Positions 47,278 to 63,173 of a DNA stretch of 63,173 nucleotides are shown one piece after another. Each line of letters begins with the position of its first letter. Position 1 is the first letter of the stretch. Origin of the DNA: Terriglobia bacterium (GTDB lineage: Bacteria > Acidobacteriota > Terriglobia > Acidiferrales > UBA7541); contig JAIQGD010000016.1 in the NCBI GenBank assembly GCA_020072765.1, positions 1 through 63,173 on the forward strand. Reading direction: 5' to 3'. Position numbers and translations under genes: made by a program. The notes beneath the pieces were generated by a model. That model was given only the letters and a program-made list of their open reading frames with translations, was not told where the DNA came from and did no database searches.

Positions 47278-47352
47278 GGCGCGGTACCCAAGTGGTAAGG
47301 GAGAGGTCTGCAAAACCTTTATACGTGGGTTCGATTCCCACCCGCGCCTCCA
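47278..47352 (+). tRNA. tRNA-Cys (GCA)
   Basis: 75 nt including an encoded CCA end. Acceptor GGCGCGG (47278-47284) pairs with CCGCGCC (47342-47348). Anticodon loop CTGCAAA gives GCA for Cys. T-arm GTGGG-TTCGATT-CCCAC. A TATACT -10 box lies at 47262-47267. Confidence 0.96.
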
Positions 47353-52613: not shown

Positions 52614-53828
52614 TTAGCGGCGCCGGCGCTTCTTGCTGGCCGCTGGCTTCCGCTTTCGCTTGGCGCTCTTCTTGCCCTTGGGCCACAGCTCTTTGCTGGC
52701 GATGCGCGCGCCCTCGGCCAGGGCCTCGAATTTCGCCCACATGACGGACGCGGGCACGCGCACAATGCGGTCGGCTTGCGCGAAGCCGCAGTCGGTGCTG
52801 GCTATCACGTTCTCACGCCCCACGAGGCGCGCGAAGCGCACGATGCGGTCCGCCACAAGCCGCGGATGCTCCACGGTGATGGTGTGGTGCGTCACCACAC
52901 CCGGGATCAGGATCTTTCCTTTCGGAAGTTTTCGCGTCTCCCACACACGCCATTCGTGCTCGTGGCGCGGATTGGCCGCCTCGATCGAATACGCTCCCGC
53001 GCGCACGCTGAGGATGAAGCCCAGAATCTCCTCAAGCGGGGCATCGGAAAGATGCGGCACGTGCCAGCTGCCGAAGCAGACGTGGTAGCGCACGCGATCC
53101 TCGGGAATCCCCTCGAGCGCGTGATTCAGCGCCTCGATGCGCAGCCCGGCCCACTGGCGATAATGTTTCGGGCTCTGCTGCACGAAGTGGTCGTACATAT
53201 TGGCCAGGACGGCGTCGTCCACCTGCACCACCAGCCCGGCCTTGTGGATGGCGCGGTACTCTTCGCGCAGGGCGTCGGCGATGGCGTAGACGTACTCTTT
53301 TTCGGTGGGATAGTATTCGTTGACGCCGTCGTAGGCCGTGCTGGCCGGCGCGACCACGGGAAGGAAAGCCTCCTCGACTTTCACCGAGCGCAGGGCCGCT
53401 TGCAGGTTGCGAATGTCGCGCTCCAGCGGGCCGAGGTCCAGGTACTTGATCGGACCGACGCAGGCGACCGTGGGCACGCCGGCAGCCATCCAGGGAAACT
53501 CCGCCGCCATCACGTCGGGGAAGCGGTCGCGGTCGCGGCCCAGCCAAACCACCGGGCGCAGTTGATCGGGCCGCGTCACGAACCCGCTGATCCGTTCCAG
53601 AACGTAATTGGCCCAGCTGGATTTTCCGTATTCGCCGTCATTGACGATGTCGATGCCGGCCTTGGCCTGCATCTGCACCGCCTCGGCCACGCACTCGCGC
53701 AGGCCGTCTTCGTAGCGCTGCTGACTCCCGGGCGAATTCCGGGCGGCTTCGGCCAACTCGCGGAGTTTCGCCGGGCGCACCAGGCTGCCGACGTGGGTGG
53801 TGAGAATGCGATGCTCGCTTCGTTTCAT
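52614..53828 (-). CDS. MetE-like cobalamin-independent methionine synthase-family protein
   Basis: 404 aa TIM barrel of the UROD/MetE type. TTHVGSLVRP at the start, DIVNDGEYGKSSW, and the zinc-ligand positions His/Cys in YHVCFGSWHVPH and Cys in ASTDCGFAQ are kept. It has no N-terminal MetE half, so it is a core methyltransferase-like form with an unknown methyl donor or acceptor. The C-terminal 20 residues are nearly all Lys/Arg, unusual for the family. It could transfer methyl groups from other donors. It is transcribed alone. Confidence 0.82.
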   Translation of the reverse strand: MKRSEHRILTTHVGSLVRPAKLRELAEAARNSPGSQQRYEDGLRECVAEAVQMQAKAGIDIVNDGEYGKSSWANYVLERISGFVTRPDQLRPVVWLGRDRDRFPDVMAAEFPWMAAGVPTVACVGPIKYLDLGPLERDIRNLQAALRSVKVEEAFLPVVAPASTAYDGVNEYYPTEKEYVYAIADALREEYRAIHKAGLVVQVDDAVLANMYDHFVQQSPKHYRQWAGLRIEALNHALEGIPEDRVRYHVCFGSWHVPHLSDAPLEEILGFILSVRAGAYSIEAANPRHEHEWRVWETRKLPKGKILIPGVVTHHTITVEHPRLVADRIVRFARLVGRENVIASTDCGFAQADRIVRVPASVMWAKFEALAEGARIASKELWPKGKKSAKRKRKPAASKKRRRR

Positions 53829-54058: not shown

Positions 54059-57000
54059 TTAGAAGGAGAACCGCGCGGCGAACTGGAACTGCCGCGGGTT
54101 AAACATGGTCCGCGGCTTGCCGAAGTTGGCGTTCGGATTGTACGGGATGAAGTTAACCCCGCCAATCGGATTGAATGCCAAGGTTCCCGTACCAATGTTG
54201 ATGTTCCCCGCCGGGCAAGCCGTGGATGCCGCGCCCGCCTGGATCGCGAGGCTGGTGGCATCGTTGTAGCGCTTCGGGATCCCGCCGCAAAAGACCGGAG
54301 ATCCGTAGACCGAGGTCACCTCATCGATGTTGGCCCGATCCAGCACGTTGAACGCGTCCATGATCACGTCGAGCTTCACGCGCTCGCTGATATGAATCGC
54401 ACGGGAAACGCGGAGATCCCACGAGTACAGCGGGGCTCCGATGTAGGTGTTCCGGGGAATCATGGTTTGGCAGTTGCTGGCCGAGGTGCAAACGCTCCCC
54501 GGCACTCCGCCTGCGACGCGGTCGGTAGCGCCGCCGGCCAGATCGTTCAGCGTGTTGTTGCCGGCGAAGATCGTGAACGGCCGCCCAGCCTGCATGGTGA
54601 TGATGCTGCTGAACTCGAAGTTGCGCAGGAAGCTGTCCTTCGGCGCGCTGAGTGTGAAGTTGGCGACGAAGTGGTGACGCACATCCTGGTTCGAGTTGGA
54701 CCGCTCGGCCGCGTAATCGAACTGGTTGACGGGGAGGTTGATGAAGGTGGTGAAGTTGCCGTTGTCAATCGTGTGCGAATAGGTGTAGTTCGCGGTCAGA
54801 TTGAGGTAGTGGCCCCAGCGCTCCAGCGCCGTCACGGTCAAGCCGTGGTAGGCGGCGTTGGCCACGTTGTTGTTGTAGTCGAGAAGACCCGAGCTCAGCA
54901 TCTGCAAGCCCGAGCCGAACGCGCCATTAAACCAGGGGCCGACACCAGCCAAAGCCCCGGTTCCGAGGACGGGTACGCCCGTGGCGCACTTCGACAGGGT
55001 ACCATTGGCATTGACCATTCCAGGAACCCATTCCGGCAGAGGGTCTGTAGGACTTGCCGCTTGCGCAGCGTCCGTCGTGCCCACCGGGCAGGGAACGTTG
55101 ATGTTATTTCCGCGGACCAGCCGGTGCGCGCCCACGAAGAGGTAGCCGAGGTTGAGCGCGAAGCCCTTGCCGAACTGGCGATCGATCTCCGCACTCGCCT
55201 GCACGGCGTAGGGCAGCTTGCTGTTGTGTTCCATACCGCCCGCGCCACGGCCGCACGCGCCCGTCGTAAAGCAGGTGCCCGCCATCGGGATCACCCCTCC
55301 CACGGTCAACGCGCTGTAGCCGCCTGTCTGGATGATGCTGGCCACCATGTCGGCTGCACCCTGCGAGGCGGGGAAACCGAAAATCTGGTATCCCTGCGTC
55401 GCCTGGAGATTACCCGACGCAACCATCGGCATTGTTTGCGGCTGGATGCCGGCGCCGCTGCAGATGGCCGTGATGGTAGCGGACGGATTGTTGCCGCAGA
55501 GGTATCCGGCCACCACCTTTTGCGTGTTGGGGATGAAGAAGAAGCTCATGTTTTGCCGGTCGGAGAACATCCCGGCTCCGGCGCGCACGACGGTCTTGCT
55601 GTCCGGCGAGTAGGCCAGGCCGATGCGCGGCTGCCAAGCCGTGTAATCGGGCTTGACGAACGCCGCGAGGCCCGATTCGTAATCCCACCGCAAACCGAAA
55701 TTGAACGTCAGCTTGGGAGTGACGCGCCACTGGTCCTGCGCGAACCCACCCCAGTAGCCATGGTTGATCTGGCGGGAGTAACTGGAGAAGAGCGACGGCT
55801 GGTACGCGTTCGCCCACGTGCTGGTGTTGAGTGGCGCGCCAGTCGGGGCGCACCAGGGAGGATTAGCGCAAGCCGTGGGGCTGGTCGGCAGCGGCACGCC
55901 GGCGTACATGAACACAATGCCGTTGTCGCCCGGTACCGGGCACTGAGCTGCCAGGCTGTTGAGGCCGGCCGATCCCCCGACATCCGCGCCGTAGCTGCCG
56001 TCGTAATACTCGGCGAAATTCGCGAGGCAACCGAGGCCCGGCATGAGCGACCGCACGGGTGTGAACCCGGGGAAGTTGTCGACATCCCAAATGTAGTTGC
56101 CATCGAACCCGAACTTGGCCAGGTGATTGCCCTTGACCCAGGAGATGGAGTCCGAGACCTGCATGCGGCTTTCGTACTTCTGGTCGTCAATTCCGAAGTT
56201 GTGGCCCAACTCGAGGTCGTTCAGAACGCTGAAGTCGGGCTGGCCGGTCATGCCGAGGAAGTTGTAGTGGCGCTGCGCCCATTGGCCGAGGACCGTATTC
56301 ACCAGGTTCGGCGTCAGGATGGAGGTCAGCGTTCCGGAGAGCGACTGGTCGCGCACGAACAGATCGCGTCCACCGCTCGGCGTGCCGATGCCGCCGCCGT
56401 CGAGCGTATTCCCAATCAGTTCACCCAGCGCGCGCCCGTCTTCGATCAGGTAGCGGAGCGCCAGGCGGTTGTTCGTGTTGATCTGATGATCGAGCCGCGC
56501 AAAACCAAAATCGCTGTTGGCGGTCTTGAGAACCCCATTGAGGTATGAGATCGGTGAGCCCGAGCAGCTCGCCAGAGGCAACGTGCAGCCTTCCGGCGCC
56601 AGCCCCATCAGGGCCTTGGCTTCGTCAATCAGGGCAATGTTGCTGACGAGGTCGGGCGGGTAGGTGGGAGATTCCGCGCGGCGCTTGCCTTCGTAGTTCA
56701 TGAAGAAGAAGGTCTTGTCCTTCTTGATCGGTCCGCCGAGGGTGCCGCCGAACTGATTCTGCCGCAGTTGGTTGGGCAGCGGGGCCGGCTGCAACAGCGA
56801 ACGCGAATCGAGCGCGCTGTTCTGGAAATATTCGTAGAGCGAACCGTGCATATCGTTCGTGCCGGACTTGGTGACGATGTTGACGATGCCGCCGACCGAG
56901 CGGCCGTATTCGGCGCCGAAGCTGTTGTTGACCACGCGGAACTCCTGCACGGAGTCCTGCGGGGGAGTGGCGCGCTGCACGCCGCTCAGGGCGTTGACGA

Positions 57001-57613
57001 AGTCCGCGCCGTCCACGGTGATCTCGTTGCTGAACGAGCGCATGCCGCCGAAGGAAATCTGCGTGACTTCAAATTCGGTGATCGTCGTGCCCAGCGAGGT
57101 GCGGCTGGTGGCGACGCCGGGGGTCAGCAGCGCGAAATCCGTGAAGAGGCGCCCGCTGATCGGCAGTGACTGGATCTGCTGCTCGCCGACGACCTGGCTG
57201 ATCTCCGTCTTGGTGGGCTCAATCACAGGCACTTCCGAGGTGACGACAACTTTTTCGCCCGCCGCCGCCAGTTGCAGGGCCACGTCCACCGTCGCGCTCT
57301 GACCGACCGTCAATACGATTTGCGTTTGCCGGTAGTTCGCGAAACCGGAGTACGACGCCGTGAGCTCGTAAGTTCCCGGCGTCAAGTTCGGAACGGTGTA
57401 GAAGCCGCGATCGTTGGAAGTGGCCGTGGACGTGACGTTCGTGCCGGTGTTGCGCACGCTTATATGCGCGCCCCCAACGACGCCGCCGCTCGGGTCCGTC
57501 ACTGTGCCGTTAAGCTGGGCCACCGCGACGGCCTGCGCGAACGTCGAACCCGCGCCAACCAACAAAAGCGCAAACGCTACTGCAACCACCAGAGCCAAAC
57601 GTGCTTTCATCAA
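54059..57613 (-). CDS. Oar-like TonB-dependent receptor, full length
   Basis: 1184 aa. Signal peptide (MMKARLALVVAVAFALLLVG, cleavage near TFAQA). Carboxypeptidase-regulatory domain at about 30-115 (LNGTVTDPSGGVVGGAHISV). Plug domain at about 120-240 (SQVVGEQQIQSLPISGRLF, VDGADFVNALSG, YGRSVGGIVNIVTKSGTNDM). A very large barrel ends in FNPRQFQFAARFSF, with a terminal aromatic residue as required for barrel assembly. This is the Oar-type family greatly expanded in Acidobacteriota, thought to import plant or microbial polymers. AGGTGAT precedes ATG 57613. Confidence 0.95.
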   Translation of the reverse strand: MMKARLALVVAVAFALLLVGAGSTFAQAVAVAQLNGTVTDPSGGVVGGAHISVRNTGTNVTSTATSNDRGFYTVPNLTPGTYELTASYSGFANYRQTQIVLTVGQSATVDVALQLAAAGEKVVVTSEVPVIEPTKTEISQVVGEQQIQSLPISGRLFTDFALLTPGVATSRTSLGTTITEFEVTQISFGGMRSFSNEITVDGADFVNALSGVQRATPPQDSVQEFRVVNNSFGAEYGRSVGGIVNIVTKSGTNDMHGSLYEYFQNSALDSRSLLQPAPLPNQLRQNQFGGTLGGPIKKDKTFFFMNYEGKRRAESPTYPPDLVSNIALIDEAKALMGLAPEGCTLPLASCSGSPISYLNGVLKTANSDFGFARLDHQINTNNRLALRYLIEDGRALGELIGNTLDGGGIGTPSGGRDLFVRDQSLSGTLTSILTPNLVNTVLGQWAQRHYNFLGMTGQPDFSVLNDLELGHNFGIDDQKYESRMQVSDSISWVKGNHLAKFGFDGNYIWDVDNFPGFTPVRSLMPGLGCLANFAEYYDGSYGADVGGSAGLNSLAAQCPVPGDNGIVFMYAGVPLPTSPTACANPPWCAPTGAPLNTSTWANAYQPSLFSSYSRQINHGYWGGFAQDQWRVTPKLTFNFGLRWDYESGLAAFVKPDYTAWQPRIGLAYSPDSKTVVRAGAGMFSDRQNMSFFFIPNTQKVVAGYLCGNNPSATITAICSGAGIQPQTMPMVASGNLQATQGYQIFGFPASQGAADMVASIIQTGGYSALTVGGVIPMAGTCFTTGACGRGAGGMEHNSKLPYAVQASAEIDRQFGKGFALNLGYLFVGAHRLVRGNNINVPCPVGTTDAAQAASPTDPLPEWVPGMVNANGTLSKCATGVPVLGTGALAGVGPWFNGAFGSGLQMLSSGLLDYNNNVANAAYHGLTVTALERWGHYLNLTANYTYSHTIDNGNFTTFINLPVNQFDYAAERSNSNQDVRHHFVANFTLSAPKDSFLRNFEFSSIITMQAGRPFTIFAGNNTLNDLAGGATDRVAGGVPGSVCTSASNCQTMIPRNTYIGAPLYSWDLRVSRAIHISERVKLDVIMDAFNVLDRANIDEVTSVYGSPVFCGGIPKRYNDATSLAIQAGAASTACPAGNINIGTGTLAFNPIGGVNFIPYNPNANFGKPRTMFNPRQFQFAARFSF

Positions 57614-57922
57614 TCACCTCGGAGATCTTTGGACTTAATGCAGAATGGTCGCGTGAGCGCGGCATTCCCGCCCGCGATCAACGCAGGCTGGATAGATACA
57701 ACCCGACTCACCCCCAAATTCCGCTGTGAGTTAATACTATGAGCGGCTTGCATGTGTCAAGGCCCAACTATATACATCCCACCGAAAGGATTATGGTCGC
57801 CGTCTCGGCCGGTACCGTGTAAGAATTGGCGGCTGCATTTGCATACAGGAGGGGCCGTTAAGCACCCGGAGTGCCGCCGGAAAAAGGCGGCGCGCCCCCC
57901 TGGAAAAGGTCAATTGCAAACA
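57614..57922. other. 309-nt divergent control region
   Basis: It holds the leader and promoter of the TonB receptor (minus strand) and the upstream region of the O-methyltransferase. TTGCAT and TATATAC near 57749-57774 could serve the plus strand, with a short spacer. No gene is seen. Confidence 0.4.
57731..57760 (-). promoter_or_regulatory. Sigma70-type promoter of the TonB receptor
   Basis: On the minus strand TTGACA (57760-57755), 18-nt spacer, TATTAA (57736-57731). The implied leader is about 110 nt. Confidence 0.55.
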
Positions 57923-58969
57923 ATGTCGAAAGAAATGGCGTCCCTGACTCGTCTGCCGAAACACGATCCCACGCTGCTGTACCGCTATCGCGACGGCCTC
58001 TACGCCCCGGAACTGCTGGGCGCGGCGGTGACGGGGCTGGATTTCTTCACGTGGCTGGGGAAATCACCCTCCGACGCGCCAACTATATGCAAGTCGCTCG
58101 GACTGGCGGAACGCCCCGTCGATGTGATGCTGACCCTGTTTGCGGCCATGGGCTTTGTGGAGAAGAAGAAGCAAACTTTTCGCCTGACCGAGATCGCCAG
58201 GGAATTCCTGACGCGGGACTCGCCCTGGTTCATCGGGCCGTATTTTGCGCCGTTTGCCGAGCGGCCGGCGTGCCGCGATCTGCTCGAAGTCCTGCGCACC
58301 GGCCAGCCCGCCAACTGGGTGCGCCGCCAAGACCAGAAGCCCTGGGCGGAGGCCATGGAGGACGACGCGCTGTCGAAGCAGTTCACCGGGATGATGGACG
58401 CGCGGGGCCTTTACCTCGGGCCCAGTCTGGCGCGCAAGATCGGCTGGCAACGATTCCGGCACGTTCTGGACATCGCGGGCGCTTCCGGCATTTACGCTTG
58501 TTGCCTGGCGGCCGCGCATCCCCACTTGCGGGCGACGGTGTTCGAGCGGCCCCCGGTCGATCGCGTGGCCCGCCAGTGCATTGCGCGTCGCGGCTGCTCG
58601 GAGCGCGTGGAGGCGGTGGCCGGCGACATGTTTGCAGCGCCCTTTCCGGATGGCTGCGACGTGCATCTGTTTTCCAACGTCCTGCACGACTGGGACGTGC
58701 CCGCCGTCCAATCCCTGTTGCGCAAATCCCACGCCGCGCTGCCCCGGAACGGGATGATCGTGATTCACGATGCCTTCCTCAACCGGCAAAAGACGGGACC
58801 CCTTCCGGTGGCGGCCCATTCGGTGTTTCTGATGGCGGTCACGGAGGGGCGCTATTACTCGCTTTCGGAAATCGAGGGTTTTCTGGAAGAGGCGGGTTTC
58901 TCGGGAATGAAGTATCGGAAGAACGCCATGGACTACGGAATCGTCACCGCGCGCAAATCCCGGCGGTAG
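57923..58969 (+). CDS. SAM-dependent O-methyltransferase (Methyltransf_2 type)
   Basis: 348 aa from ATG 57923; ATG 57935 is also possible. An N-terminal winged-helix dimerisation domain (APELLGAAVTGLDFFTWLGK, GFVEKKKQTFRLTEIAREFL) is followed by the SAM fold: VLDIAGASGIYACCLA, the acidic E of ATVFERP, and the catalytic-His region FSNVLHDWD. The family methylates small phenols and polyketides. It is convergent with the selenoprotein gene, 21 nt apart. The nearby demethylase-like gene makes a role in methoxy-aromatic turnover tempting but unproven. Confidence 0.85.
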   Translation: MSKEMASLTRLPKHDPTLLYRYRDGLYAPELLGAAVTGLDFFTWLGKSPSDAPTICKSLGLAERPVDVMLTLFAAMGFVEKKKQTFRLTEIAREFLTRDSPWFIGPYFAPFAERPACRDLLEVLRTGQPANWVRRQDQKPWAEAMEDDALSKQFTGMMDARGLYLGPSLARKIGWQRFRHVLDIAGASGIYACCLAAAHPHLRATVFERPPVDRVARQCIARRGCSERVEAVAGDMFAAPFPDGCDVHLFSNVLHDWDVPAVQSLLRKSHAALPRNGMIVIHDAFLNRQKTGPLPVAAHSVFLMAVTEGRYYSLSEIEGFLEEAGFSGMKYRKNAMDYGIVTARKSRR

Positions 58970-58990
58970 CGTGAGCGGCGCGCTCGTGGA

Positions 58991-60742
58991 TCACGCCCAG
59001 CGATCGATCGAGATGCTGGACCGATAACTCAGATTGCCCACCTGAAAAAAGGCGTTGGTCTGCCCGCCCGTGACCACCAGGTTGATGTGCTCGGCTCTTG
59101 CCCAGCGGGGAATCAGGGCATCATCGGGCATCTTGTACCAGGTGGCCCAAGGCTCCTGGCCCTTGATGGCTCGCGGATAGTCGAATTGATAGACGAAGGC
59201 CTGCTGCTTGTAGTCCTTCACCGGCAGCGTCGTGTTCTTCCACAGCCAGTTGGCGATTTTTTCCTTGGTGTCGTAGCCCTGCTCGACCAGGCGCTTGGCT
59301 ACCAGCGGATCGCAAATCACCAGCGCGCCAAACAGCCCGAGCAGCGTTCCAAACATGTCGCTGATCTGCTCGTCAAACATGGGATTCTCGAGCACTCCGG
59401 CGTGCTTGGCTCCGTGGCCCTGGCGCAGATCCTCTCCGGCAAACAGGCTGACCACGCTTTCCTCGGTCTTGAATCCCTTTTGCACGTGAAACGGAGTCCA
59501 GGGACTGTCCTTCTCGTTCTCGGCGATCACGATGTTGTTGTAATTGAGATTGTTGCCCTGCGAGCCCAGGTAGGTGTCTCCGGGAATTCCGGCGTTTCCG
59601 AGATTTCTCGACAGGATCGTCCAGGCCCGGCCGATGGTGGCGTTGGGCTGCGCAAACGGGCCCATCGCGCCGATGGTGTAGTTCATCGTGAGCTTGTCGC
59701 GGACCGGCCCGTTGATCACCATCGAGTAGGCGAAGGAGGTCGTGGAACTTCCCAGGGCGGACACCCCGGAAGCGGCGATCGCCAGGATCACCGGAAAATA
59801 TTCCGGCCGCGCCCCCGCCATCACGGCGTTGATGGCCACCTGCCGGACGGTGTACGACCACGGTTCATACAGGCCGCCCGCCATTTTTCCGACCACTTCG
59901 TCGGGATGATGGCTGGTGCCCTTGAGCATGGCTGCGACTTTTTCTTCCGTGGGCAGGATGATCGGCAGGTAGTCCGTCATTCCGTTGTCGCAGTAATACT
60001 GCTGGAGATTGTCGGCAGTATCCGGCCCGAACGTCGGAGGCCCGACCGACGGGCTTACCATGCCCGACTTCAGTTCTTCGGGCACCAAGGGCTGGGTCAG
60101 ATAATCGACCATTTCCTTCATCATCGGCTTTCCGCTGACCGGATCGTCGCCATTGAGGTAGGCCCAAATCTGTTCCGCGGTCTTGCCCCAGATGGGATGG
60201 GGCGTGAAGGTGATGCGCTCGCGCGGCATGCCTTTATTGGCCGCGGTGGAGAGGGCCAGGTCCTTGAACGCCCGGGTCACCACCGGGGTGGTGGGAATGC
60301 CCATCTTTTCCAGCGTGAAACAATGGCCGACGACCGCCGGCGTGCAGCCTCCTCAATGCCCGATGGCCATGATGCAGGCGTGCCCTTTGGCCTTGATCTC
60401 CTTCCACAGCGCCGGATCATCCTCGGCGTACGCCCCGGCCTTCTTGCGATAGACGGTCGTGACGCCCGGCATGTTCTGGCTGAACCAGCGCTGGATCAAG
60501 TGCAGGAGGGAATCGGCTCCGGGAAAACCGTCGTCCACCAGGAAAACGGTCTTTCCGTCGAGGCTCGCAAGCCGCGGCGCCATGGGAACGAGTTTGACGG
60601 GAGGAGGAGTGCCCTTCGGATTGAGCGTGACAATCTTGCCGGAGCCGGCGGCCGGACCTTTGGGCCCTTCCGCCAAGGCACCGGGAGCCGCGAGGGCCGC
60701 CGGAGAGATTCCGAGCAGTGACAACAGTTGTCGTCGATTCAT
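58991..60742 (-). CDS. UGSC-family selenoprotein with Tat signal and in-frame UGA (Sec130)
   Basis: 583 aa if TGA at 60353-60355 is read as selenocysteine; otherwise a 129-aa fragment and a 437-aa orphan frame starting at 60304. The N-terminus MNRRQLLSLLGISPAALA is a twin-arginine signal. The TGA lies in GH-U-G-G-C-T followed by VVGHCFTLEKMGIPTTPVV. This matches the UGSC family, where a U/C-G-S-C redox pair precedes a conserved LEKxGIP. C133 is the resolving Cys. After the TGA the frame stays open for 453 codons with family-like sequence. A SECIS-like hairpin follows. The protein is probably an exported thiol/selenol oxidoreductase or reductase subunit. It lies 62 nt after the demethylase-like gene, same strand. 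ORF finders will split it. Confidence 0.85.
60326..60355 (-). promoter_or_regulatory. UGA selenocysteine codon and bacterial SECIS-like hairpin
   Basis: Minus strand: UGA (60355-60353), 11 nt, then GCCGGC-GGUC-GUCGGC (60341-60326), a 6-bp stem with one G-U pair. The apical GGUC loop sits about 18 nt after the UGA, within the window where SelB-binding bacterial SECIS loops (G/GU at the tip, as in E. coli fdhF AGGUCU) are found. Confidence 0.65.
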
Positions 60743-60804
60743 AGCCGCTGGAATCCCTCCCGCTCGCGCTCGGCAATACGGGCGCGTGGCCTTGCCGTGT
60801 GAAC

Positions 60805-62199
60805 CTACTTCTGAGCCGTCCGCCAGCCCGGCGCGTACTCCTTGCGCGCCACTTCGGCGTAAGGCACAGGGCTGACAATCGCGCGGATTTGCGTCTGCAC
60901 GTGGCGCTCGACGGTGGGTTTCGACGACCCGCCGCCTTCCTCGCCCCACACGAAGGTGACCTCGGTGCCCGGCTCGGTGACCTCTTTGTTGAGAATCGCC
61001 AGCGTGAGCATCTTGCCTTCGTTCGAACTGTAGCCGCACCACGTCGAGATCCCCACCGTCTTGCCATCCTTCATGACCTTGTCATAGGGCAACGTGGAGT
61101 AGACCGCGGAGGGGAAGTCGAAGTACTTGGCGCGGTCCTTCTTCTGGAACATGGTTCCCAGGGCCCGGGTGACGTCTTCGTCGTTCAGTGCCAGAGTCAC
61201 CTTCTTGCGCTTGGGGTTGGCCGCAATCTTCTCGAGCGCGGCCCGGCCGATGAAATCGTGATCGAACTTGACGATCGGCCCGTAGCCGATGTCGTAGGGC
61301 GTGAGGTAGTAGTCCTCGATATTGTCGGAGTAGAAGCTGCCGCCCAGCGAGGCAATGGCTTCGTAGCCGTTCGCCGGCAGCCATTGCCGGAACGGCTTCA
61401 TTTTCTCGCCGCTGTAAATGGCCGGCATGGGCGAGGGAATCCATCCCGATTCCAGCGTGTTGGATGAGTACGCCCGCGCGCCCACCAGCCGCAGGCCGAA
61501 TTCCTGCCCGGCCTCGAAGATGGCCGCCTTGACCGCCTCGCCCTCTTCCCAGGGACCAAAAATCTCCAAGCCGGGCTGTCCGGCCATGCCGTGACGCAGC
61601 GCGCGCACTTGGCGTCCGGCGATGGTAATCGTGGTCATGTTGAAGAATTTGAGGTCCGGGGCCGGCTTGCCCGTCACCTTGGCGATGACCTTCATGGCGT
61701 TGGGACCCTGCACCTGATAGCGGTACACCTTGCGGACAATGGGGCCCGAACGCGCCGCCGCTCGCTCGTCGCGTTCCACCTTGGCGTTGTAGCCGCCCTT
61801 CTCGCAGTGGTACTGCACCCAGCTATGAATCGAGGGGCGCCCGACGAGATTGAACAGATTCTTGTCCAGATAGAACAGCACGACGTCGCCGATCACATAG
61901 CCGTCGTAATTGCAGGCCACAAACTGCTTGGCTTTGTCCGGCACGAACCCCTGAAAGCTGTTCACGCCGAGATCGGAGAGCAATTTCAACGCATCGGGCC
62001 CTTCCACATACATGTCGGTCATGTGGTAGGACTGGTTGAAAAGCACGCAGGTCTGCTGCCAGGCGCGCTGCTCATCCCTCCAGTTCGAATATTCCGGCAG
62101 GACGACGGGATAGACGTACGGCCCGGTCTGCGAATTGCGCAACATCTTTACCGGATTTCCAATGGATTGTATCAGGTCCTCTAGATTCTTATGGCTCAC
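60805..62199 (-). CDS. GcvT/LigM-like tetrahydrofolate-dependent demethylase or aminomethyltransferase
   Basis: 464 aa from GTG 62199 (GAGGAG 5 nt upstream). The fold is of the GcvT type: PEYSNWRDEQRAWQQTCVLF near the start, YHMTDMYVEGPDALKLLSDL, GVNSF, RYQVQGPNAMKVIAKV, HGMAGQPGLEIFGP, GARAYSSNTLESGWIPSPMP. These resemble LigM/DesA-type O-demethylases that move a methyl from vanillate-like aromatics to THF, more than the glycine-cleavage T protein (about 360 aa). The substrate is not determinable. It is first in an operon with the selenoprotein, behind a long structured leader. Confidence 0.82.
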   Translation of the reverse strand: MSHKNLEDLIQSIGNPVKMLRNSQTGPYVYPVVLPEYSNWRDEQRAWQQTCVLFNQSYHMTDMYVEGPDALKLLSDLGVNSFQGFVPDKAKQFVACNYDGYVIGDVVLFYLDKNLFNLVGRPSIHSWVQYHCEKGGYNAKVERDERAAARSGPIVRKVYRYQVQGPNAMKVIAKVTGKPAPDLKFFNMTTITIAGRQVRALRHGMAGQPGLEIFGPWEEGEAVKAAIFEAGQEFGLRLVGARAYSSNTLESGWIPSPMPAIYSGEKMKPFRQWLPANGYEAIASLGGSFYSDNIEDYYLTPYDIGYGPIVKFDHDFIGRAALEKIAANPKRKKVTLALNDEDVTRALGTMFQKKDRAKYFDFPSAVYSTLPYDKVMKDGKTVGISTWCGYSSNEGKMLTLAILNKEVTEPGTEVTFVWGEEGGGSSKPTVERHVQTQIRAIVSPVPYAEVARKEYAPGWRTAQK

Positions 62200-62479
62200 T
62201 GTCTCTCCTCAATGGCAGGACGATTCCGTCCGCTCACGCAAGATCCAAATTCTTCCTAGCGATTTCAGCACGCGCGGAGCGCCATCGTGGCTGGCACGAA
62301 GGCTTGCACGCGTCATTCTCGTGGTGCTTTGGGAGCGCCCCACACACGGCCGTGGGATCCACCGCCTCCCGACCCGCCGGGTGTCTGGTGGCAGCGCCCC
62401 TGCTTCCTCGGGGCGCAGGGTTGCTGGGCGCTCCACCACCGTGACGTAGCTTTTGTCCGAAGCATCAGCCTTTCGGAGC
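62200..62479 (-). ncRNA. Long structured 5' leader of the demethylase-selenoprotein operon
   Basis: About 280 nt between the predicted start (near 62479) and GTG 62199. The strongest element pairs 62386-62399 with 62426-62438 (TGGTGG-c-AGCGCCC against GGGCGCTCCACCA) with one bulge. An inner stem joins CCCTGC (62398-62403) and GCAGGG (62415-62420). A competing stem joins GGAGCGCCC (62332-62340) to GGGCGCTCC (62426-62434). Alternative pairings of this sort suggest a cis-regulatory RNA, but I could match it to no known riboswitch. Confidence 0.45.
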
Positions 62480-62485
62480 CTAAAG

Positions 62486-62514
62486 AAGATAAGGGAGGGC
62501 GGCGCATCTGTCAA
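62486..62514 (-). promoter_or_regulatory. Sigma70-type promoter of the demethylase-selenoprotein operon
   Basis: Minus strand: TTGACA (62514-62509), 17-nt spacer, TATCTT (62491-62486). Confidence 0.7.
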
Positions 62515-62686
62515 CGGGATTGTATTCTTTCCGGGCCCACTTTCCGCCCGCCAACGCAGGAGGTCTGCATTGGCATCTTCCCCGCGATCGCGCCGGCGCA
62601 AAGATAACATGCCTATTCCCAAACGGTTACGAAGTGCGCCGCAGGGCCGGCCCTGTCTGGCTCGAAATTCCCACCGTAAATTACGT

Positions 62687-62700
62687 ATGCAATGTTGCAT
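62687..62700. promoter_or_regulatory. ATGCAA-TG-TTGCAT dyad, possible operator
   Basis: 6-bp inverted repeat with a 2-nt centre, 12 nt upstream of the -35 box of the plus-strand promoter at 62712. Confidence 0.35.
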
Positions 62701-62711
62701 GCACATTATTC

Positions 62712-62740
62712 TTGACAAGAACCGGTGGCGGTAGTAAGAA
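62712..62740 (+). promoter_or_regulatory. Sigma70-type promoter of the terminal TonB receptor gene
   Basis: TTGACA (62712-62717), 17-nt spacer, TAAGAA (62735-62740). The start near 62747 gives a 75-nt leader to ATG 62822. Confidence 0.65.
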
Positions 62741-62821
62741 GCACCGCACAGGGTGTGTGGGAACTAGGGTATGACGCACTCACTGCGTGAAATCCACAGG
62801 TGTGAAAGGATAAGGTGGGCA

Positions 62822-63173
62822 ATGGCAAGAGGGCGTAGCATAGCGAAATTTGCATGGCTGTACATAGTGATGGCGTTACGCGCAAGCGCAGACGGCCAGC
62901 ATTTCCGGCACGGCGACGGACGCTTCGGGCGCCGCGCTGGTTAACGCCAGCGTCACGGCGACCAATACCGGGACGAGCGCGGCGACATCGACCGTAACCG
63001 ATTCACAGGGACGCTACCGGATTTCCCAGTTGCCCGTCGGCACGTATAACGTGCAAGCCACGCTGGCGGGCTTCCAGACGGTGGTCAATAAGGGCGTCGT
63101 GCTGAGCGTCGGCGGCTCGACCGTAATCGACTTCTCCCTTCCTGTCGGGAAGGTGACGGAGACCGTCAACGTC
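62822..63173 (+). pseudogene. TonB-dependent receptor N-terminus, frameshifted and cut by window edge
   Basis: ATG 62822 follows AAGGTGGGCA and encodes a signal peptide (ARGRSIAKFAWLYIVMAL). The mature sequence QTASISGTATDASGAALVNA, a carboxypeptidase-regulatory domain continuing to the window edge (YRISQLPVGTYNVQATLAGF), is in another frame with a stop at 62868-62870 and no start of its own. Dropping one base near 62879 (TTAcGCG) joins them as MALAQAQTASIS, a perfect AxA cleavage site. This is either a real single-base insertion that kills the gene or a sequencing error. Confidence 0.75.

Follow-up and report, generated by a model that had tools for sequence, protein, structure and literature searches.

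The gene at 58991..60742 (minus strand) of the window, the whole 63,173-nucleotide stretch of DNA analysed here, almost certainly encodes a single selenocysteine (Sec) protein of the UGSC type, 583 codons long, in which the UGA at codon 130 is decoded as Sec. Read from 60742 to 58991, the frame contains one internal TGA, codon 130 (60353..60355, minus strand), and ends in a second TGA at 58991–58993. Residues 1–129 and 131–583 share one frame, with 453 codons beyond the internal TGA. An earlier note on this DNA had described two in-register frames split only by TGA 60353–60355, a TGA that falls at the U of a U-G-G-C redox motif, and family-like sequence for more than 450 codons past it; all of this was borne out. 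The motif is a variant of U-G-S-C, and Cys133 (60344..60346, minus strand) is the presumed resolving cysteine of the UxxC pair. Searched separately, the downstream ORF continues to hit the last part of the UGSC model (positions 111–155). As that note anticipated, standard gene callers would be expected to split the gene into two ORFs.

Several lines of genomic evidence support Sec decoding. The gene lies in a 3.78 Mb metagenome-assembled genome (MAG; G000) that is 96.6% complete and holds all of the selA, selB, selC and selD functions that the earlier note had pointed to, namely selA, selB, selD and a tRNA-Sec with anticodon UCA. A Pfam UGSC search located 14 UGSC loci in G000, each with one in-frame TGA. 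We aligned these 14 genes with five genes of other acidobacterial MAGs, giving 19 proteins from four assemblies; three of the five additional genes lie in tandem at one locus (L018). U130 and C133 are invariant in all 19 proteins, and the codon in the U130 column is TGA in 19 of 19. The earlier note had asked whether homologues carry U or C here, and both occur: TGC occupies the Sec column in three paralogues of the sister genome G010 (motifs CSTC, CSTC and CAGC). One paralogue in G007 reads CSTY at the motif. Sec-containing variants among the paralogues include USTC, USSC, UGSC, UHGC, UPGC, UDGC and UNGC, with UGGC in the window gene. The terminal stops of the aligned genes differ (TAG, TAA or TGA) at a constant position, which identifies the final TGA (codon 584) in the window gene as its stop. 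Genome-wide reassignment of UGA is unsupported, as the window gene ends in TGA where its paralogues end in TAG or TAA.

In a phylogenetic tree, the Cys copies of the window genus are nested among Sec copies and therefore look like Sec-to-Cys changes. Downstream of the UGA, dN/dS is ∼0.03–0.2 in close pairs, at or below the upstream level. At the locus L062 (G010:C71), a Sec UGSC paralogue stands in tandem with two Cys paralogues; in this natural Sec-to-Cys series the SECIS has decayed. Some distant UGSC paralogues in G095 and G171 (family f38) carry Ser at the Sec position, so some members of the family may not be redox enzymes. These Ser-for-Sec paralogues are found in tandem (L111, G095:C67; L110, G171:C100) and lack the resolving Cys; the same family also holds Sec copies.

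A bacterial-type SECIS-like stem-loop, identified by folding and paralogue comparison, lies at 60317..60351 (minus strand). Its apical hairpin, GCCGGC-GGUC-GUCGGC (60326–60341, minus strand), overlaps the register conserved among the paralogues (60321–60339). The window stem with its GGUC loop folds at −14 kcal/mol with a z-score of −0.74, and a G-loop hairpin at least as good stands at SECIS distance from 17% of the remaining in-frame positions of UGSC genes; the window hairpin is thus uninformative alone. The stem that the earlier note placed at the right distance is therefore present but unremarkable, and becomes significant only against the paralogues. For that comparison the hairpin register was fixed, and synonymous recodings of each gene were drawn according to the codon usage of the genes themselves. 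UGA paralogues with the peptide PATVGHC form seven of seven Watson-Crick pairs, a score that ∼0.05–0.1% of synonymous recodings reach. In the same register the window gene forms four Watson-Crick and three G-U pairs with none broken, which 6.8% of recodings equal; its minimum-energy hairpin is longer and slightly shifted relative to the conserved register. All four Cys paralogues checked have 1–3 broken pairs, and three of these also encode PATVGHC. In a UGA copy at locus L027, a compensatory CTG/CAG exchange has preserved the stem. Most UGA paralogues keep the hairpin via synonymous codon choice, and other family subgroups are less clear. Together these patterns indicate selection on the SECIS hairpin, with the strong case being that of the paralogue group. 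An Rfam scan of 57000–63173 returned just two weak sub-threshold matches, both located elsewhere.

An alternative reading of the locus takes the TGA as a true stop: a split gene, a pseudogene or a sequencing error, with the downstream ORF (ATG at 60304) made separately. The two ORFs from standard callers fit this reading, as does a hairpin that is unexceptional by itself. Nonetheless, all 19 aligned genes, from four assemblies, have the TGA in the same column, as do many more within the genus; natural variants carry Cys at this position, and UGA copies have kept the SECIS that Cys copies have lost. Codons 3′ of the TGA are under purifying selection, and the Sec machinery is complete. We consider this reading extremely improbable, and a genuine stop or pseudogene was rejected on the paralogue series, the Cys variants, the SECIS test and dN/dS.

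The protein's family assignment, which the earlier note gave as UGSC, holds for only part of its length. The Pfam UGSC model (PF24696) matches residues 40–192 (60167..60625, minus strand) across the TGA with E=7.6e-30 and 104.7 bits against a cut-off of 25. The NCBIfam UGSC equivalog NF041046, by comparison, gives 83.8 bits, below its cut-off of 125, and two thirds of the protein is a second, unnamed domain. We know of no function for UGSC proteins. They were among the commonest selenoproteins of aquatic metagenomes in the GOS survey, and their fusion to an ‘Unknown_1’ domain has been on record since 2008 (PMC2398784). The window protein shares with the family (PF24696, NF041046; PMC2398784) a Sec in UxxC at the same place, but its motif is UGGC rather than UGSC, it has a fused 350-residue C-terminal domain and an export-type signal, and it belongs to sets of 5–18 paralogues per genome.

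Profile comparisons link the UGSC domain to a family of known chemistry. When 14 diverse UGSC domains were searched, the recurrent matches outside UGSC were all to glycine, sarcosine, betaine and proline reductase selenoprotein B models. Eleven of the 14 proteins matched TIGR01917 (GrdB; best 1.8e-4), 10 matched GrdF, four various_sel_PB, three GrdH and two PrdB. These matches are partial and far below family cut-offs; for TIGR01917 the full-length cut-off of 602.2 is not reached by UGSC proteins. The GrdB model itself (TIGR01917) has no match in G000 at E 0.001. An hhalign comparison of UGSC with GrdB-type and PrdB-type sequences gave E=8.5e-6 and a probability of 83%, with Sec aligned on Sec. 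Acidobacterial GrdB-type proteins (L113, L114) read SNUATCSRCGATIAKAIEEAGIP...HPCG where UGSC reads ADUGSCTTCSLHDTINLEDWGVP...HPI, and both share the spacing U, C+3, C+6, E+15, G+18, P+20. The resemblance to GrdB, GrdF, GrdH and PrdB thus consists of UxxC (UxxCxxC in classical UGSC), matching spacing and a downstream HP motif. The similarity is barely detectable and spans no more than ∼75 residues. Within that stretch, the UGSC domain is very probably a remote homologue of the Sec-bearing part of GrdB/PrdB rather than a GrdB member. Unlike GrdB and PrdB, the window protein has a putative signal peptide and aerobic-type catabolic neighbours, and GrdE, GrdA or GrdC partners were not seen.

Structural comparisons were less informative. 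Sequence searches of the PDB with P0001, A1, A3, A5 and one GrdB-type protein found nothing significant. The whole window protein was modelled by AF2 with a pLDDT of 53.9, leaving the UGSC domain alone usable; the C-terminal domain modelled alone reached a pLDDT of 48. The UGSC domain model has alternating alpha/beta structure (residues 49–170), and in a Foldseek search it matched nothing clearly, the top 50 hits including no thioredoxin. The 2008 GOS paper termed UGSC proteins likely Trx-fold (PMC2398784). On the present sequence and model comparisons, the domain is not clearly a thioredoxin fold, and the earlier call finds no support here.

The C-terminal half of the window protein (∼residues 238–583; 58994..60031, minus strand) has no Pfam, NCBIfam or PDB relative. 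A likeness to ketol-acid reductoisomerase (E 0.05 and worse) was taken as chance. At loci of other acidobacteria that encode short UGSC proteins, the adjoining gene encodes the same domain as this C-terminal half (E 1e-50 to 1e-70), so the long window protein is the fusion of a conserved gene pair, with the second subunit fused in. In several of the partner proteins the shared domain is preceded, at the N-terminus, by a thioredoxin/AhpC-like domain that contains a CPTC motif. From this thioredoxin-like domain we infer that the electrons would naturally come from a thioredoxin-type reductant.

The N-terminus of the window protein carries a twin-arginine-type signal, MNRRQLLSLLGISPAALAAPGALA (60671..60742, minus strand). 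Read by eye, it runs MNRRQLLSLLG...ALA, with RR at residues 3–4, where the earlier note had seen twin arginines. Most close paralogues share the motif, beginning NRRK(L/M/I)L(S/T)(L/M)LG and followed by an AxA site, and distant homologues in G095 have TRRSFLK and TRRGFIK at the N-terminus. The signal is absent from two copies on contig C49 (L040), and the L033 copy and one L035 copy have other N-termini. TatC (PF00902) has no match in the 96.6% complete G000, whereas control genomes were positive. This negative result weakens the case for Tat export, which the earlier note had proposed. However, the hydrogenase small subunit of the same genome carries SRRQFVK, so the TatC gene may be missing from the MAG. 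Tat export is plausible from the signal common to most close paralogues; the undetected TatC and the several paralogues that lack a signal weigh on the other side.

UGSC genes are unevenly distributed. Among 61 relatives, most UGSC-bearing members of the window genus group have 5–18 copies; several genus-mates, and the remaining genomes from the family and order, lack UGSC. In a wider sample of the phylum, UGSC occurs in 41 of 396 genomes, with at least eight copies per genome in another genus (g74, family f38). SelA is found in 55 of the 61 relatives, some of the matches being partial or weak; this near-ubiquity suggests that the Sec system is older than the UGSC expansion. A different, anaerobic-type setting occurs in the second family rich in UGSC, where an aldehyde:ferredoxin oxidoreductase gene is close to a UGSC gene (L112, G180:C4).

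Directly upstream of the window gene, on the same strand, is a syringate/vanillate-3-O-methylgallate O-demethylase gene of the DesA/LigM type (60805..62199, minus strand; NF047633, 801.8 bits against a cut-off of 800). A TonB-receptor-like outer-membrane beta barrel (54059..57613, minus strand; OMP_b-brl_4 and CarboxypepD_reg) and a MetE-C-like methyltransferase (52614..53828, minus strand) are also encoded nearby, and a look-alike of the latter sits beside a DesA-UGSC pair in G009 (L102:998-2164). The wider G009 locus (L102, G009:C47:4000-16000) is a window-like cluster of genes for a small secreted protein, a MetE-like protein, UGSC and DesA; its UGSC gene is split across several frames, through error or decay. 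Elsewhere in the window are a tRNA-Cys (GCA) gene (47278–47352) and, judged from N-terminal sequence, runs of receiver-like response-regulator and receptor-like signal-transduction genes (3423–28872).

Full-length DesA/LigM was found in nine of nine UGSC-rich genomes and in none of 12 others searched, and it adjoins a UGSC gene in five genomes (G000, G005, G006, G009 and G010). The DesA-adjacent UGSC genes do not form one clade in the tree, indicating that the linkage arose more than once or was reshuffled. PQQ alcohol dehydrogenases, counted by TIGR03075 and including the ‘acido-empty-quinoprotein’ group, number 23–42 per UGSC-rich genome searched (∼33 matches in G000) and 1–3 in genus-mates with zero or one UGSC gene. 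Among the rows listed, where contigs are short, 40 of the 108 UGSC genes have a PQQ dehydrogenase gene no more than 5 kb away, against an expectation of at most 3.9. One G000 contig (C96; L037, L038) has the order UGSC, UGSC, PQQ, PQQ, PQQ, UGSC, empty quinoprotein, UGSC. Other UGSC neighbours encode tannase/feruloyl esterase, 4-oxalomesaconate tautomerase, pca-type CoA transferase, aldehyde dehydrogenases, a TonB-like receptor and MetE-like methyltransferases. These neighbours point to lignin-type methoxyaromatic catabolism, and we lean slightly towards a role for the UGSC proteins in aromatic catabolism. The DesA and PQQ profiles may instead follow one clade, not function.

Our best explanation of the whole, to which we give an even chance, joins Sec decoding, GrdB/PrdB kinship and the fused second subunit to a putative function: the window protein would be an exported, substrate-specific Sec reductase that cleaves C–X bonds, our best guess for the substrates being oxidised lignin-derived compounds. 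In the mechanism we conjecture, PQQ-dependent alcohol dehydrogenases encoded next door would make a carbonyl, and Sec130 would attack the carbon adjacent to it and expel a leaving group, forming an organoselenium adduct. Cys133 would resolve the adduct to a Se-S bond, which the thioredoxin-like partner would reduce, and the released methoxyphenols or acids would pass to the neighbouring DesA/LigM O-demethylase. That ether or other C–X cleavage is the reaction itself, on the substrate that we infer, is the doubtful part of this explanation. There is precedent in FarB/FarE, the fluoroacetate dehalogenase of Cloacibacillus porcorum: the Sec of the GrdB-like FarB is proposed to displace the leaving group by attacking a polarised carbon, and multiplication of GrdB-type genes yields copies proposed to be substrate-specific C–X cleavers (PMC10838667). 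The window protein differs from FarB/FarE in domain architecture, phylum and neighbours. Overall, the scheme would be a selenium analogue of the C-alpha-dehydrogenase/beta-etherase pathway of SYK-6, the bond cut perhaps being the aryl-ether C–O. In that pathway LigD, LigF and LigG cleave beta-aryl ethers with glutathione (PMC7691349). The proposed logic shared with LigD/LigE/LigF/LigG is alpha-alcohol oxidation, chalcogen attack on C-beta and adduct resolution; the SYK-6 pathway, in contrast, uses cytoplasmic glutathione transferases and NAD-type dehydrogenases that have no homology to the UGSC system.

Two other functions were weighed against a catabolic reductase. The UxxC motif, the frequent thioredoxin/AhpC-like domain of the partner protein and the likely Trx-fold call of the GOS paper (PMC2398784) would all suit a general periplasmic thiol/selenol redox protein, such as a peroxidase or disulfide reductase, with no dedicated substrate and a copy number that reflects redox stress, for example from the products of PQQ dehydrogenases. 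Yet the similarity is to GrdB/PrdB and not to thioredoxins, and 14 diverged paralogues beside different catabolic genes suggest substrate specialisation. To our knowledge, general antioxidant enzymes are also rarely amplified 10–18 fold. We regard such a role as possible but unlikely. Less likely still is a redox or maturation partner of the adjoining PQQ dehydrogenases, acting in disulfide formation or electron transfer rather than catabolism. It would account for the 40 of 108 listed UGSC genes near a PQQ dehydrogenase and for UGSC and PQQ copy numbers that rise together within the genus. Against it, more than half of the listed UGSC genes lack such a dehydrogenase within 5 kb, the class-mate G043 has 43 PQQ dehydrogenases and no UGSC, and the window copy adjoins DesA/LigM, not a PQQ enzyme.

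Annotation pipelines are likely to truncate UGSC-type genes at the UGA codon. For the proteins themselves, kinship with GrdB/PrdB supplies a candidate chemistry, while a setting comes from the partner domain and the genes nearby. It is tempting, though decidedly speculative, to see the multiplied, exported, GrdB-derived selenoenzymes and the PQQ alcohol dehydrogenases as a glutathione-free selenium system with which soil and peat acidobacteria cleave lignin-derived ether or similar C–X bonds. If the link to PQQ dehydrogenases and methoxyaromatics is true, these acidobacteria would need selenium for part of their carbon metabolism.
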